From the NCBI GenBank assembly GCA_944324475.1, contig CALUWK010000018.1:1-32960 (forward strand): a stretch of DNA of 32,960 nucleotides, in the 5' to 3' direction. Source of the DNA: Candidatus Gastranaerophilales bacterium. GTDB taxonomy: Bacteria; Cyanobacteriota; Vampirovibrionia; Gastranaerophilales; Gastranaerophilaceae. The notes beneath the pieces are model-generated. The model saw only the letters and a list, made by a program, of their open reading frames with translations, searched no databases and was not told the DNA's origin. Both the position numbers and the translations under genes were made by a program. How positions within the stretch are numbered: position 1 is the stretch's first letter; the number at the start of each line of letters is the position of its first letter. Positions 1 through 14,665 of the stretch are shown piece by piece.

Positions 1-1
1 A

Positions 2-1375
2 TCAAACAAAATTGAAGAATTTGAACCAATCGAGCAAAACAAGGTTAAAATGTATGTTTGCGGGCCTACTGTTTATGATAATGCACATTTAGGTCATGCA
101 AGATGTTATATTACTTGGGATACGTTATATCGTTATTTAAAATTTAAAGGTTATGAGGTTACATATTGCAGAAATGTAACCGATGTTGACGATAAAATTC
201 TTAAAAAAGCTGAAAATGAAGGGGTTGAACCTTCAGTGATTACTGATAGATATTATAAATCTTTTATAAATTCAATGAATAATTTAAATGTTCTAAAGCC
301 TGATATAGAACCTCGTGCAACTAAAACACTTGGCGAGATGATTGCAATGGTTAAAAAACTTGAGCAAGATGGCTTTGCTTATGCAATTGACGGGGATGTT
401 TATTTCAGAGTTGAAAAATATAAAAAATACGGCGAATTATCATCTCAACCGATAAAAGACTTATTAAACGGCGCAAGAGTAGAAACAAATGATAAAAAAG
501 AAAGCCCTCTTGATTTTGCGTTGTGGAAAAAAGATGAAGCCCATGGCTATAAATCCCCTTGGGGTATAGGCCGTCCCGGGTGGCATATAGAATGTTCTGC
601 TATGAGCAAAAAACATTTAGGTAATACTATTGATATTCACGCAGGTGGTGCTGATTTAGCTTTTCCTCATCATGAAAATGAAAGAGCTCAATCAGAATGC
701 GCTAACGGATGTCAATTTGCAAAATATTGGATGCACAATGGTTTTGTTACTATCAATAAAGAAAAAATGTCAAAATCTTTGAATAATTTTCTAACTATTG
801 ATGATGTATTAAAAACTTATGACACAAACGCAATAAGATTATTTATTTTAACTAATCATTATAGAATGCCTGTTGAATTTAATGATGTAGCGCTATCCGG
901 TGCTTCAAGCGGAGCAAAAAGACTTATAAATTCCATTGCAGGAATTGAATTAGGCAATGAATATGATGATGAAGCCATAAAAGAATTTGAAGAAGCAATG
1001 GATGAAGATTTAAATACTTCAAAAGCGCTTGCAATTTTATTTAAATTAGCAGATAAAGTGCGAAAAAATGAAAATAAACAAATTAGCGCTAATACGCTAG
1101 CTTACCTGGGTTCAGTTTTAGGATTTGATTTTTCATTATCTCAAAGGGAAGTATCTGATGAAGAATTAGAAAAAATAGTTGAACCATTATATGAAGAATT
1201 TAATATCGATAAATCAATCGATAAGAAAAATATAATTGATGAAATTATTAAAATCAGAAAAACAGCTAGAGATAACAAAGATTGGGCTAAATCTGACGAG
1301 ATAAGAGATAAATTATTGATTCATAAAATTCAGCTAAAAGATTCTAAAGAAGGTACAACTTGGCAAATAATATAG
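2..1375 (+). CDS. cysS: Cysteinyl-tRNA synthetase, 5' end cut by window edge
   Basis: Charges tRNA-Cys with cysteine in the cytoplasm (class I synthetase). The frame is open from base 2 and reads into the typical family N-terminus KMYVCGPTVYD, so the methionine at 50 is internal and the true start lies roughly ten codons left of the window. Visible are the HIGH-type motif AHLGHAR, the zinc-site pieces MYVCGP, GWHIECSAMS and HHENERAQSE, and the KMSKS loop in KEKMSKSLNN. Allowing for the missing start, the length (about 467 residues) is normal for the family. The stop overlaps the start of rsmI by 16 bases, so the two are probably cotranscribed. Identity is very secure. Confidence 0.97.
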   Translation, partial: SNKIEEFEPIEQNKVKMYVCGPTVYDNAHLGHARCYITWDTLYRYLKFKGYEVTYCRNVTDVDDKILKKAENEGVEPSVITDRYYKSFINSMNNLNVLKPDIEPRATKTLGEMIAMVKKLEQDGFAYAIDGDVYFRVEKYKKYGELSSQPIKDLLNGARVETNDKKESPLDFALWKKDEAHGYKSPWGIGRPGWHIECSAMSKKHLGNTIDIHAGGADLAFPHHENERAQSECANGCQFAKYWMHNGFVTINKEKMSKSLNNFLTIDDVLKTYDTNAIRLFILTNHYRMPVEFNDVALSGASSGAKRLINSIAGIELGNEYDDEAIKEFEEAMDEDLNTSKALAILFKLADKVRKNENKQISANTLAYLGSVLGFDFSLSQREVSDEELEKIVEPLYEEFNIDKSIDKKNIIDEIIKIRKTARDNKDWAKSDEIRDKLLIHKIQLKDSKEGTTWQII

Positions 1376-5756: not shown

Positions 5757-7304
5757 ATGAAAAGAGTTAGAATTATTATCGGATTGGTTAGTTTATTTTT
5801 ATTTTGTTTTTCTGCTTTTGCACAAAATCAAAATAATAGTATAAGAGAGCTTTTTAATAATAATGAAGCGATAATTTATGCAATAAATATAAGAAATTTT
5901 GGTGCAGTGGATAAAAATTCAGATGGAATTATTGATATTGATGACGGAGACATACCCGGAACATTTATTAACGCTAAAGAAAGATTAAAGAATCTGAAAG
6001 ATGAAGGGATAAATACGCTTTACGTTCTTCCTATTACAAAAACAGGTAAACTGAAGGCCTTGGGAACGGCAGGTTCATTGTATGCAATGGACAGTTTTAT
6101 TGAAATTAGCCCTTTTTTAGACGATAAAACAAACGAAATTTCAGTATACGATGAGGCAAAAGATTTTGTAAATTATGCTCATAGCCTAGGATTTAAGGTA
6201 ATAGTTGATCTCCCGAGTTGCGGTTCTTTTGATTTAAGTTTAAAAAAGCCTTCCTGGTTTTTAAAAGACAGAAATAATGAGACTTATGCACCTGCAGATT
6301 GGACAGATGTGCGTTTATTTAGGATTTATAATAGAAATAGAATTTTAAATGAAGATATTTTGAATAATTTTAAAAGTTTTGTTGATTTAGTTCAAAATTT
6401 GGGTTTTGATGGAATTAGAGCTGATGTTGCTGCGATAAAACCATATGTTTTTTGGAAAAATATAATTGATTATGCAAGAAACAAGAATAATGATTTTTTG
6501 TTTTTAGCAGAAGCAAGTCCCGATTGGACAAATCCTGCATTAGGTATAATAGGGCATTATGCAACAATTGATGAGTTATTATCTGCTGGTTTTGATTGTT
6601 ATTACGGTTCTTGGAGTAATTTTAAAAACATTAAAACAAAAAAAGAATTTGATTTGAATATTGAAAAAAATTTAAAAATTTTAAAAAACAATAAAAATGT
6701 TTCAATTATGACTGCTATTGCAACACATGATCAGCAAGCTCCGATACTTAGGGGTAAGAATTATTGGAATATGGTTTTGTGGTTAAATGCTACATTGAAG
6801 CAAAACGCTTATTTTCTTGACGGTTTTTCAACAGGCGATGATTTCACGTATTCTTATGAAAACAAAAAAGCCAGAAGAACTCATACGGATGATGAATATT
6901 ATTTTGTTCATTCAGGCATGTTTGATATTTTTAATTTATCTGCAAGACCGGCGGGTAATTATCCTGATTTAAAAAATCAATATTTAAAAGCAATAGATTT
7001 TAAAAAAAGAAATGCATCTTTAATAAAAGACGGGATGTTTTCGCTTTTAAAAACCAATAATGATAAAGTTTTTGGATATAAAATTAAAAATTTCGATAGA
7101 GAATTAATTGTAATTGGTTCTTTGGACGAAAATAATAATCAAAACGTAACTGTTAAGTCAGACTATTTGAAAAAAGATTATTTATTTTCAATAATTAATG
7201 CCAAAAAGCAAGCTAAAATTGAAAAAAATAAAATAACTGTTTCTCTTGAACCTTTAGAACTTCAAGTATATTTGATAAGTCTTGCAAAATATAGGGCGAT
7301 GTAA
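5757..7304 (+). CDS. Secreted alpha-amylase superfamily (GH13) protein
   Basis: Glycoside hydrolase family 13 TIM-barrel protein of 515 residues, likely acting on alpha-glucans or related sugars outside the cytoplasm. A signal peptide covers about residues 1-22 and ends SAFAQ. The loop DKNSDGIIDIDDGD (52-65) matches the calcium-binding loop of many GH13 enzymes. The nucleophile is D223 in GIRADVA, the acid/base E252 in LAEAS and the transition-state Asp D325 in ATHDQQ, so the catalytic triad is intact. Region I is degenerate: DLPSCG (151-156) replaces the usual D-x-x-x-N-H. A small beta domain occupies the last 80 residues. No ribosome site precedes the ATG. Exact substrate cannot be told. 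Confidence 0.88.
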   Translation: MKRVRIIIGLVSLFLFCFSAFAQNQNNSIRELFNNNEAIIYAINIRNFGAVDKNSDGIIDIDDGDIPGTFINAKERLKNLKDEGINTLYVLPITKTGKLKALGTAGSLYAMDSFIEISPFLDDKTNEISVYDEAKDFVNYAHSLGFKVIVDLPSCGSFDLSLKKPSWFLKDRNNETYAPADWTDVRLFRIYNRNRILNEDILNNFKSFVDLVQNLGFDGIRADVAAIKPYVFWKNIIDYARNKNNDFLFLAEASPDWTNPALGIIGHYATIDELLSAGFDCYYGSWSNFKNIKTKKEFDLNIEKNLKILKNNKNVSIMTAIATHDQQAPILRGKNYWNMVLWLNATLKQNAYFLDGFSTGDDFTYSYENKKARRTHTDDEYYFVHSGMFDIFNLSARPAGNYPDLKNQYLKAIDFKKRNASLIKDGMFSLLKTNNDKVFGYKIKNFDRELIVIGSLDENNNQNVTVKSDYLKKDYLFSIINAKKQAKIEKNKITVSLEPLELQVYLISLAKYRAM

Positions 7305-7305
7305 T

Positions 7306-7494
7306 TTATTCAAGTAAGTTTTCAAGGATATCTGCATTTTTTTGAGCATTTTTTGGGGCTATTCTTGAAGATTTTTTGATATATTCTCTTAACGCTTCTC
7401 GGACAAATTCTGAGCGAGTTCTTTGTTCTTTATTTGCAAGTTCATCTATTGTTTTTAAAAAATTATCTTTCATTGAAATTAGTATTCGAGCCAT
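7306..7494 (-). CDS. Ribbon-helix-helix (CopG/MetJ-type) DNA-binding protein
   Basis: A 62-residue protein whose first 45 residues form a ribbon-helix-helix fold: strand ARILISMKD, helix FLKTIDELANKE, turn and helix RTRSEFVREALREYIKK. Such proteins are small repressors or the antitoxin half of a toxin-antitoxin pair. GGAG lies 6 bases before the ATG. No toxin gene follows, because its stop is 1 base from the end of the converging GH13 gene, so it is either an orphan antitoxin or a stand-alone regulator. Its targets might include its own promoter or the divergent superoxide reductase; that is only inference. Confidence 0.75.
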   Translation of the reverse strand: MARILISMKDNFLKTIDELANKEQRTRSEFVREALREYIKKSSRIAPKNAQKNADILENLLE

Positions 7495-7519: not shown

Positions 7520-7547
7520 ATTATATCATATTTTTTAAAATTGTTTA
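7520..7547 (-). promoter_or_regulatory. Promoter of the ribbon-helix-helix gene
   Basis: An extended -10 (TGATATAAT, 7528-7520) with TAAACA 16 bases further upstream on the minus strand. Expected transcript start is about 7513, leaving a 19-base leader that contains the GGAG ribosome site. Confidence 0.55.
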
Positions 7548-7626
7548 GAATTAACCAAAGTTGCTAATTTTTTTTAATTTTATCCTGTGCAAAAATTTAA
7601 CAAGATAAATTAAAGGAGAGAAAAAA

Positions 7627-8025
7627 ATGACAAAATTATTAGAGCTTTACAGGTGTGAAATTTGTAATAATCTTGTAGAGATTGATCATGAAGGAATGGG
7701 CACTTTGGTTTGTTGCGGGCAAGATATGAAACTTTTAGTTGAACATGAAGCAACAAGCGAAAATGCACATTTTGCACATGTTGAAACAGTTGAAAATAAT
7801 GACGGGTCAAAAATTATAACTGTAAAAATTAATCATGGAATGACCGATGAACATCATATTGAATTTATTGAGGCTATTTCAAAAGATAAGAAATATACAA
7901 AGAAGAAGTTTTTAAAAGCCGGTGAAACTCCCGAAATGGTAATTAAATGTAACTGCAGTGAAGGTTTTTATATTAGATTATATTGCAATAAAGATGGTGG
8001 TTGGTTAACAAAAACTGAAATATAA
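7627..8025 (+). CDS. dfx: Desulfoferrodoxin / superoxide reductase with an altered iron ligand
   Basis: Reduces superoxide to hydrogen peroxide in anaerobes, usually with electrons from rubredoxin. It has the two-iron class I layout: an N-terminal desulforedoxin domain with C10, C13, C29 and C30, then the catalytic domain with ligands H48, H70 and H76 (in NHGMTDEHH) and C120. The last expected ligand, the His of the usual YCNLHG, is Asp here (YCNKDG, D123). If real, the active iron lacks one of its four histidines. An excellent AAGGAG site precedes the ATG. Ferritin follows after an 11-base gap, so the two are probably one transcript, and a rubredoxin gene lies 7 kb away. Family is certain; full activity is not. 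Confidence 0.92.
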   Translation: MTKLLELYRCEICNNLVEIDHEGMGTLVCCGQDMKLLVEHEATSENAHFAHVETVENNDGSKIITVKINHGMTDEHHIEFIEAISKDKKYTKKKFLKAGETPEMVIKCNCSEGFYIRLYCNKDGGWLTKTEI

Positions 8026-8036
8026 GGGGCTTTAAG

Positions 8037-8525
8037 ATGGAAACTAAATTGATACAAGCATTTAATAAACAAATCAATCATGAATTTTATAGTGCGTATT
8101 TATATTTTGCTATGTCTACATATTTTGATGAAATTGCAATGTGCGGTTTTTCGAAGTTTATGAAACATAAAGCATCTGAAAAATTAGACTGTGCACAAAA
8201 AATTTATGATTATATAATTTTAAGAGATGAGAAATTAACTTTTTCAAAAATTGAAGAACCTTCAGTTGATTGGATAAATGTTTCTGATATATTTTCAACG
8301 GCACTGTCTCATGAAGAATTTATGTTAACTCAAGTTCATGAGCTTTATAAAACCGCAAGAGAGGTTGATGATATTGCAGCTCAAGAATTTATATCAAATC
8401 TTTTAAATGATAAAGTTGTAACGGTCGGATGTTATAGAAAACTTGTATTTAGGGTTAAAAACAGTAATATAATATCTGCTAATATAGAACATCTTGATGA
8501 AGTTATAAATGACATTAAAATTTAG
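8037..8525 (+). CDS. Ferritin-family protein with a degenerate ferroxidase centre
   Basis: A 162-residue four-helix protein aligning along its length with E. coli FtnA, the iron-storage ferritin. By hand alignment, FtnA E17 and E94 are kept (E16 and E93), but E50 becomes K49, H53 becomes C52, Q127 becomes K126 and E130 becomes T129. Most iron-oxidation ligands are therefore gone, so it may store iron with help from a partner subunit, or do something else. No other ferritin gene is in the window. It sits 11 bases after superoxide reductase, fitting a role in iron and oxygen stress. Its stop overlaps the end of nth by 4 bases. Confidence 0.88.
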
Positions 8526-14524: not shown

Positions 14525-14665
14525 TTAGAGCACTTCAGAAAATTCTTCTTTAGATACATGACAAATAGGGCACACCCAATCGTCTTTTAAATCTTCAAAT
14601 TCAATGTTATTGTTTTCTTTTGGGTCGTAAATATAGCCGCAAACTTTACAGATGTATTTTTTCAT
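14525..14665 (-). CDS. Rubredoxin
   Basis: A 46-residue one-iron electron carrier. It has the two CxxC knuckles CKVCGYIYD (C6, C9) and [11 protein letters not shown] (C33, C36); conserved aromatics Y4, Y11, Y13 and W30 are present. The Gly normally after the last Cys is His. The strong site AAGGAGAG lies about 5 bases before the ATG. It is slightly shorter than the usual 52-54 residues because the loop between knuckles is reduced. It is the natural electron donor for the superoxide reductase at 7627. Identity is secure despite the size. Confidence 0.93.

Follow-up and report, generated by a model that had tools for sequence, protein, structure and literature searches.

It is close to certain, as read from its sequence and a predicted structure, that a ferritin encoded beside a superoxide reductase (SOR) homologue in a Candidatus Gastranaerophilales bacterium is without a ferroxidase centre. 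We give about an even chance to the reading that this protein, named FTX here, is a structural, catalytically inert subunit which has come to resemble the animal ferritin L chain by convergence, and which is probably mixed into cages with an intact ferritin. Gastranaerophilales are non-photosynthetic gut relatives of Cyanobacteria. The source genome (1.72 Mb in 64 contigs, about 97% complete) supplied the window, that is, the whole stretch of 32,960 nucleotides that was analysed, in which the pair of genes is laid out as follows.

7627 to 8025, forward strand: homologue of desulfoferrodoxin-type SOR (Dx-SOR), 132 amino acids, with the Cys4 centre I intact and centre II altered
8026 to 8036, forward strand: gap of 11 bases between the sor stop and the FTX start, beside a GGGG stretch that is a possible ribosome-binding site
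8037 to 8525, forward strand: FTX, the ferroxidase-less ferritin, 162 amino acids, predicted helices A to E

The 11-base gap and the GGGG stretch suggest one transcript, and sor and FTX, which lie on the same strand, are thus likely to be cotranscribed.

The FTX reading frame is intact, from an ATG start to a TAG stop, and in a profile search its product matches Pfam Ferritin (PF00210) at 1e-27, scoring 97 bits where 24.5 are required. The first-pass annotation had called for structure prediction of the helical core, and an AlphaFold2 model of the single chain, computed from an alignment of 52 sequences, has the ferritin fold over the full chain (pLDDT 91.6), with five ferritin helices, helix E included. 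The model superposes on Escherichia coli FtnA with 161 residues aligned (1eum; Z 24.4, 1.2 A) and, in the case of 9bye, a thermostabilised mutant of the same protein, with 162 (1..162 onto 2..163); Z scores against structures of the Ftn type are 24-25. The nearest solved structures are the ferritins of Thermotoga maritima, Pyrococcus furiosus and Archaeoglobus fulgidus (TM 0.94-0.96 among the top matches, identity 28-32%). In the T. maritima protein, however, the six ligand residues are all present, whereas FTX has lost four. A HMMER alignment of these two proteins runs without gaps over residues 4-151 and, together with the full-length superposition on FtnA, leads us to reject alignment error as the source of the ligand changes.

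The superposition places FTX numbering one below that of FtnA, and the six ligand positions, with their states among 26 orthologues from the genus, are these.

8082 to 8084, forward strand: E16 (FtnA E17), retained; E in 24/26 orthologues, Q in 2/26
8181 to 8183, forward strand: K49 (FtnA E50; human E62, L-chain K62); K in 24 and R in 2 of 26 orthologues
8190 to 8192, forward strand: C52 (FtnA H53); His in 0/26 orthologues
8313 to 8315, forward strand: E93 (FtnA E94; human E107), putative salt-bridge partner of K49; E in 26/26
8412 to 8414, forward strand: K126 (FtnA Q127); Q in 17/26, K in 5, then G, E, T and S in one each
8421 to 8423, forward strand: T129 (FtnA E130); E in 2/26 and D in 3/26 orthologues

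This is the list that had been proposed from a hand alignment with FtnA (E17 and E94 kept; E50K, H53C, Q127K and E130T changed), on which superposition and ungapped alignment agree in register. The di-iron ligand set is therefore incomplete in every member: four of six ligands are changed in the window protein, and among the 26 orthologues two are lost in 2, three in 13 and four in 11, the two mildest cases (L024 and L027) lacking E50 and H53. The glutamates that neighbour the ligands, at FtnA positions 49, 126 and 129 (site C and the inner surface), are likewise relaxed in the clade. A structure-based alignment might have brought other acidic or His residues into the ferroxidase positions, and this was not seen: position 52 has neither an acidic residue nor His in any orthologue (C12 N7 S2 R2 T1 L1 V1), position 129 is acidic in 5/26, and position 49 is basic in 26/26. 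The earlier claim that the iron-oxidation centre is gone is thus upheld by the superposition and by clade-wide ligand loss, and also by the purifying selection described below.

Comparison of the 26 FTX proteins with 18 intact SOR-linked sister ferritins indicates what took the place of the site. At just two columns, 45 and 49, is each group fixed (at least 85%) for a different residue: the sisters have Q and E there, and FTX has K at both. Seven positions with at least 95% conservation among the sisters are variable in FTX (below 60%): 40, 48, 52, 125, 128, 129 and 133, which are the H53 and E130 sites with neighbouring glutamates, plus two others. Acidic residues at 128-130 are gone from nearly all FTX proteins, a Trp at position 121 in 14/18 sisters is found in 0/26 FTX, and net charge averages approximately -6 for FTX, -12 for the group of 18 sisters and -13 for 27 ordinary ferritins. 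Residues newly fixed in FTX lie in the BC loop (71, 78 and 80) and in the helix D-E region (135, 141, 142, 149, 151 and 153). The L-type residue pair is found throughout, with K or R at the human E62 position in 26/26 and E at the E107 position in 26/26, and we infer that a buried salt bridge between K49 and E93 (and E16) stands where the metal site was. The analogy is with human L-ferritin, in which a salt bridge between Lys62 and Glu107 takes the place of the iron site (PMC11396501), the same bridge being K58-E103 in the numbering of PMC2603009. The FTX pocket would be imperfectly conserved, since the residue equivalent to E17 is Gln in 2/26. The L-chain acidic nucleation cluster on helix B, human positions 57, 60, 61 and 64, corresponds in FTX to H in 22, S in 21, E in 12 or Q in 11, and a variable residue (D in 5, E in 1), respectively, of the 26 proteins. 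The cluster positions are partly listed in PMC2603009. Because acidic nucleation positions are absent, FTX is not an L chain in the nucleation role, and the likeness, to judge from these residues, is that of the dead site.

We sought the point of loss among ferritins outside the clade. A ferritin match was present in 181/191 genomes drawn from the family, and 45 ferritins were read for comparison, comprising 40 rows (L035-L074) from 17/40 other genera and five ordinary ferritins of this genus. Rows L035-L054 were best matches, taken automatically, whereas the choice of L055-L074 was manual and mostly favoured matches extending to the C-terminus; one gene was read twice, as L054 and as L071, and the incomplete rows L059 (internal stop) and L070 (contig end) were set aside. 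All six ligands are kept in 43/43 full-length ferritins read outside the FTX clade, and in 34/34 of the full-length SOR-linked ferritins, which span 15 other genera. In a tree of 76 rows the 26 ferroxidase-less proteins form one clade (support 100/100), the stem of which measures 0.84 changes per column, and this clade sits inside one group of SOR-linked ferritins (100/98); outside the genus, SOR-linked ferritins do not make up a single clade. Nearest to FTX are six intact sequences of genus g36, in a weak grouping (90/76). Gene order points the same way: the succession sor, ferritin, nth (on the opposite strand) and trx is common to the FTX locus and to five loci of other genera (L129-L131, L137 and L139), the ferritins of which have all six ligands intact. 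Four further loci from outside the genus (L133-L136) have sor and ferritin, with nth and trx absent within the stretch compared, and in L138 nth and trx lie on the opposite side of the pair. As the SOR-linked relatives are intact in 34/34 cases, some at the same chromosomal place, tree and gene order together place the ligand loss on the genus stem, and a single loss in the genus ancestor, in a vertically inherited gene, would be the simplest reading. The row set aside for its internal stop is a SOR-linked ferritin of another genus (L059; G033:C11, ~822401-822862) whose frame is interrupted by a TAG; its genome is 99% complete.

Within the genus, FTX has an orthologue in 26/28 genomes, at 56-100% identity, and a SOR gene adjoins it in 26/26 loci. 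The relatives that bear names are largely metagenome assemblies labelled 'Candidatus Gastranaerophilales bacterium', some of them bearing sample names that refer to goat or rabbit ('Lapin'). The two genomes without FTX, G004 and G025, are 77% and 82% complete, and in G025 the contig stops 0.2 kb past sor, leaving a remnant without a ferritin frame. Ratios of dN/dS in 15 pairs from six close genomes are 0.03-0.09 for FTX, 0.07-0.17 for SOR and 0.02-0.07 for the ordinary ferritin, single values being rough as dS reaches 1.9 in some pairs. Given this range, FTX is a working gene under purifying selection.

A second ferritin is encoded elsewhere in the source genome, on a different contig (G000:C7:41006-41413), with all six ligands intact and about 34% identity to FTX. 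The search for such a gene, likewise proposed in the first-pass annotation, was positive well beyond this genome: an ordinary ferritin was found in 28/28 genomes of the genus, and its six ligands are intact in 27/27 copies read as well as in the source genome's own. Two further proteins of the source genome we take, from sequence features, to be rubrerythrin-like.

The first-pass annotation had named a mixed cage, a scavenger and something new as possible roles, and the presence of this intact second ferritin makes the mixed cage the leading reading. We rank an L-like subunit of such a cage first because the partner occurs in 28/28 genomes, because Lys-Glu exchange is known to stabilise an empty site, and because bacterial mixed cages with centre-less subunits exist. 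In Magnetospirillum gryphiswaldense MSR-1, Bfr2, the ferroxidase residues of which are mutated, forms a mixed 24-mer with its competent partner Bfr1 (PMC6529640). Bfr2 differs from FTX in that it is a haem-binding bacterioferritin sharing one operon with its partner (PMC8945002), whereas FTX is non-haem and lies away from its supposed partner. Mixed cages of FtnA and BfrB are described in Pseudomonas, where both subunits are competent (PMC8945002). Counting against the mixed cage are the low identity of FTX to the ordinary ferritin (about 34%) and the location of their genes on separate contigs. The likeness to the animal L chain extends to the fold, to the Glu62 position changed to Lys with Glu107 kept (PMC11396501, PMC2603009), and to the presence of an intact-centre subunit alongside. 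Unlike the L chain, FTX is bacterial, is derived from a SOR-linked bacterial ferritin and is without the acidic nucleation cluster, and its co-assembly is putative. In animal L chains His65 is lost.

Under the L-like, mixed-cage reading, the bridge of Lys49 with Glu93 (and Glu16) would hold the four-helix bundle together where two irons once sat, much as Lys62-Glu107 does in the human protein, and FTX and the ordinary ferritin would co-assemble as mixed 24-mers. With inert subunits mixed in, each cage might then have fewer oxidation sites, which could tune iron uptake or release in what is presumably an anaerobe, and expression beside the only SOR found could link the proportion of such subunits to oxidative stress.

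The altered SOR that the first-pass annotation had placed beside FTX is borne out across the genus. The model of this protein superposes on the Desulfoarculus baarsii SOR (a class I desulfoferrodoxin, Dx-SOR; 2ji2) over 120 residues (Z 17.6, 1.7 A), sharing its fold, its Cys4 centre I (C10, C13, C29 and C30, kept in 26/26) and four of the five ligands of centre II (H49, H69, H75 and C116, each kept in 26/26). It differs from the D. baarsii protein at two sites within the window.

7762 to 7767, forward strand: SOR N46-A47, replacing D. baarsii E47-K48; E and K absent in 26/26 SORs of the genus
7993 to 7995, forward strand: SOR D123, replacing the iron ligand His119; D in 21/26, H in 5/26

The window protein accordingly lacks the full Fe(His)4(Cys) set, and it scores 104.3 against an equivalog cut-off of 146.9; P50 is also replaced, by A or G, in 26/26. 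In a set of 36 SORs from other genera, by comparison, all have H119, 34 have E47 and 31 have K48. Loss of K48 slows superoxide reduction. Glu47 and Lys48 of the D. baarsii enzyme are the subject of a study cited in PMC3116461. The five SORs that retain His119 are those of L011, L013, L014, L015 and L030; parsimony needs one change, on a SOR tree that is poorly resolved. A variable loss of the ligand H49 was considered and dropped, as H49 aligns with H48 of the window protein and is kept in 26/26. A quick tree of 60 rows unites the SORs of the genus (SH-aLRT 100) on a stem of 0.80 changes per column, and by these trees FTX and its linked SOR changed on the same stem.

One SOR match per genome was found in 27/28 genomes, 26 of these above the family cut-off, and none was found in G004 (77% complete). 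Searches for Fe/Mn superoxide dismutase in the source genome (0/1; control positive in 12/14) and for Cu/Zn superoxide dismutase in the genus genomes (0/28; control positive in 4/14) found none. With a single SOR and neither dismutase found in these respective sets, the cell may still need the SOR against superoxide. In some genomes (L016, L017, L114 and L115) sor and ferritin are 0.3-0.4 kb apart. The product of a rubredoxin gene within the window (14540 to 14659, reverse strand; 42.6 bits) could donate electrons to the SOR homologue, and a second rubredoxin gene of the source genome lies at G000:C7:51749-51889.

FTX may instead form a cage of its own, slow to bind iron and serving as a readily mobilisable pool, for example for Fe-S repair once superoxide has done damage, beside the SOR; we hold this possible, if only tentatively. 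A Salmonella study, by its title, is said to give ferritin B a role in Fe-S repair. FtnB of E. coli and Salmonella is the one bacterial ferritin type named in PMC6315955 as being without rapid ferroxidase activity, and like FTX it is a second non-haem ferritin beside an ordinary one. Linkage to SOR in 26/26 genus loci and the five predicted helices, helix E included, would suit a homomeric cage, as would the conserved genus-specific residues of the BC loop and the helix D-E region, which suggest specific new contacts. However, the inner acidic residues are relaxed in FTX, and obvious binding sites for an iron pool are hence lacking. FTX also differs from FtnB in being SOR-linked and of another lineage. 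It scores 36.2 bits (5e-9) against NCBIfam PRK15022 'non-heme ferritin-like protein', the FtnB model, where the cut-off is 154, and does better against PRK10304 'non-heme ferritin' (50.3, against a cut-off of 178); bacterioferritin (TIGR00754) gives 19.3 bits against 125.55. On these curated cut-offs we rejected membership of FTX in either FtnB or bacterioferritin.

The shared stem raises the further idea that both proteins were turned to a new function together, the SOR homologue becoming an electron donor or partner of the cage, as Bfd is for bacterioferritin, and FTX providing the docking surface. This we consider unlikely. In its favour are the change of both proteins on one stem (0.84 and 0.80 changes per column for ferritin and SOR), the loss of E47 and K48 and the replacement of P50 in every genus SOR, with H119D in 21/26 and the centre I cysteines kept in 26/26, and also the newly conserved residues on FTX and the two rubredoxin genes of the source genome, one of them in the window. 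Yet H49, H69, H75 and C116 of centre II are kept in 26/26, and His119 itself in 5/26. The protein is also the only SOR found, with neither Fe/Mn dismutase in the source genome nor Cu/Zn dismutase in the 28 genomes detected. A contact between SOR and FTX is moreover hypothetical, and the genes stand 0.3-0.4 kb apart in some genomes. Similarly doubtful, in our view, is a joint conversion of sor and ferritin in which the ferritin lost iron oxidation and the SOR homologue lost its Glu-Lys pair and usually one iron ligand, so that they would now act as a single device, for example a cage whose dedicated Fe(Cys)4 reductase controls iron release from mixed cages; if this were true, an L-type ferroxidase-less subunit would have evolved twice, the second time in bacteria, from non-haem ferritins and together with an electron donor.

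Far less credible is continued iron oxidation by FTX at a remodelled site, made up for instance of E16, E93, C52 and Y23, or at a mononuclear one. E93 and Y23 are kept in 26/26 and E16 in 24/26, and Cys52 is present in 12/26, but the E50 position is Lys or Arg in 26/26, and a working metal site would hardly tolerate the variation among C, N, S, R, T, L and V at position 52; with position 129 variable too, a residual or relocated ferroxidase site is disfavoured. Least credible of all is a paralogue decaying under relaxed selection, for which the long stem and the largely free variation of residues 116-132 might speak, but which low dN/dS (0.03-0.09; 15 pairs, six genomes), 46/170 invariant columns in the alignment of 26 sequences and retention in 26/28 genomes contradict, the two exceptions being only 77% and 82% complete and one of them (G025) having a contig that ends near sor; on dN/dS and retention we rejected FTX as a pseudogene.

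According to a review, every prokaryotic ferritin subunit has a catalytic centre and forms homopolymers (PMC7762939). As regards the centre, that statement does not hold for this genus. In ferritin literature on Gastranaerophilales or Melainabacteria, a search by titles and the beginnings of abstracts, with most subscription journals outside its coverage, returned no work about FTX. A genus that carries a centre-less ferritin and a competent one, with intact relatives elsewhere, offers a clean natural experiment on the use of a ferroxidase-less subunit, and the Glu-to-Lys change in FTX is the one that marks animal L chains, here in a bacterial non-haem ferritin. The matched change in the only SOR found, in turn, offers a way to test whether SOR and ferritin are functionally linked.

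Several observations concern the surroundings of the pair. At L146 (3234-3405) the contig ends 0.2 kb past sor in what looks like a dispersed repeat. Upstream in the window, a forward-strand frame of 515 residues (5757 to 7304) has a signal-like N-terminus and, by eye, the look of an alpha-amylase type, with no Pfam match at 0.001. Between it and sor, and divergent from sor, lies a gene for a small CopG-type ribbon-helix-helix protein (7306 to 7494, reverse strand; 1.6e-10), which occurs at the same place in many genus loci and may be a regulator or an antitoxin-like protein; extra DNA separates it from sor in L106 and L128 (about 1.9 kb) and in L111 (3.2 kb). An operator-like inverted repeat upstream of sor was considered and dropped, the typed pattern being present in only 3/26 genus loci. 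In the same region (window 7546 to 7626; L005-L030), the motif CTAATTT...TTT is followed by TGTGCAAAAATTTAA or similar; this element was recognised by eye in many genus loci and in none of the other-genus loci printed, and is a possible promoter or operator.
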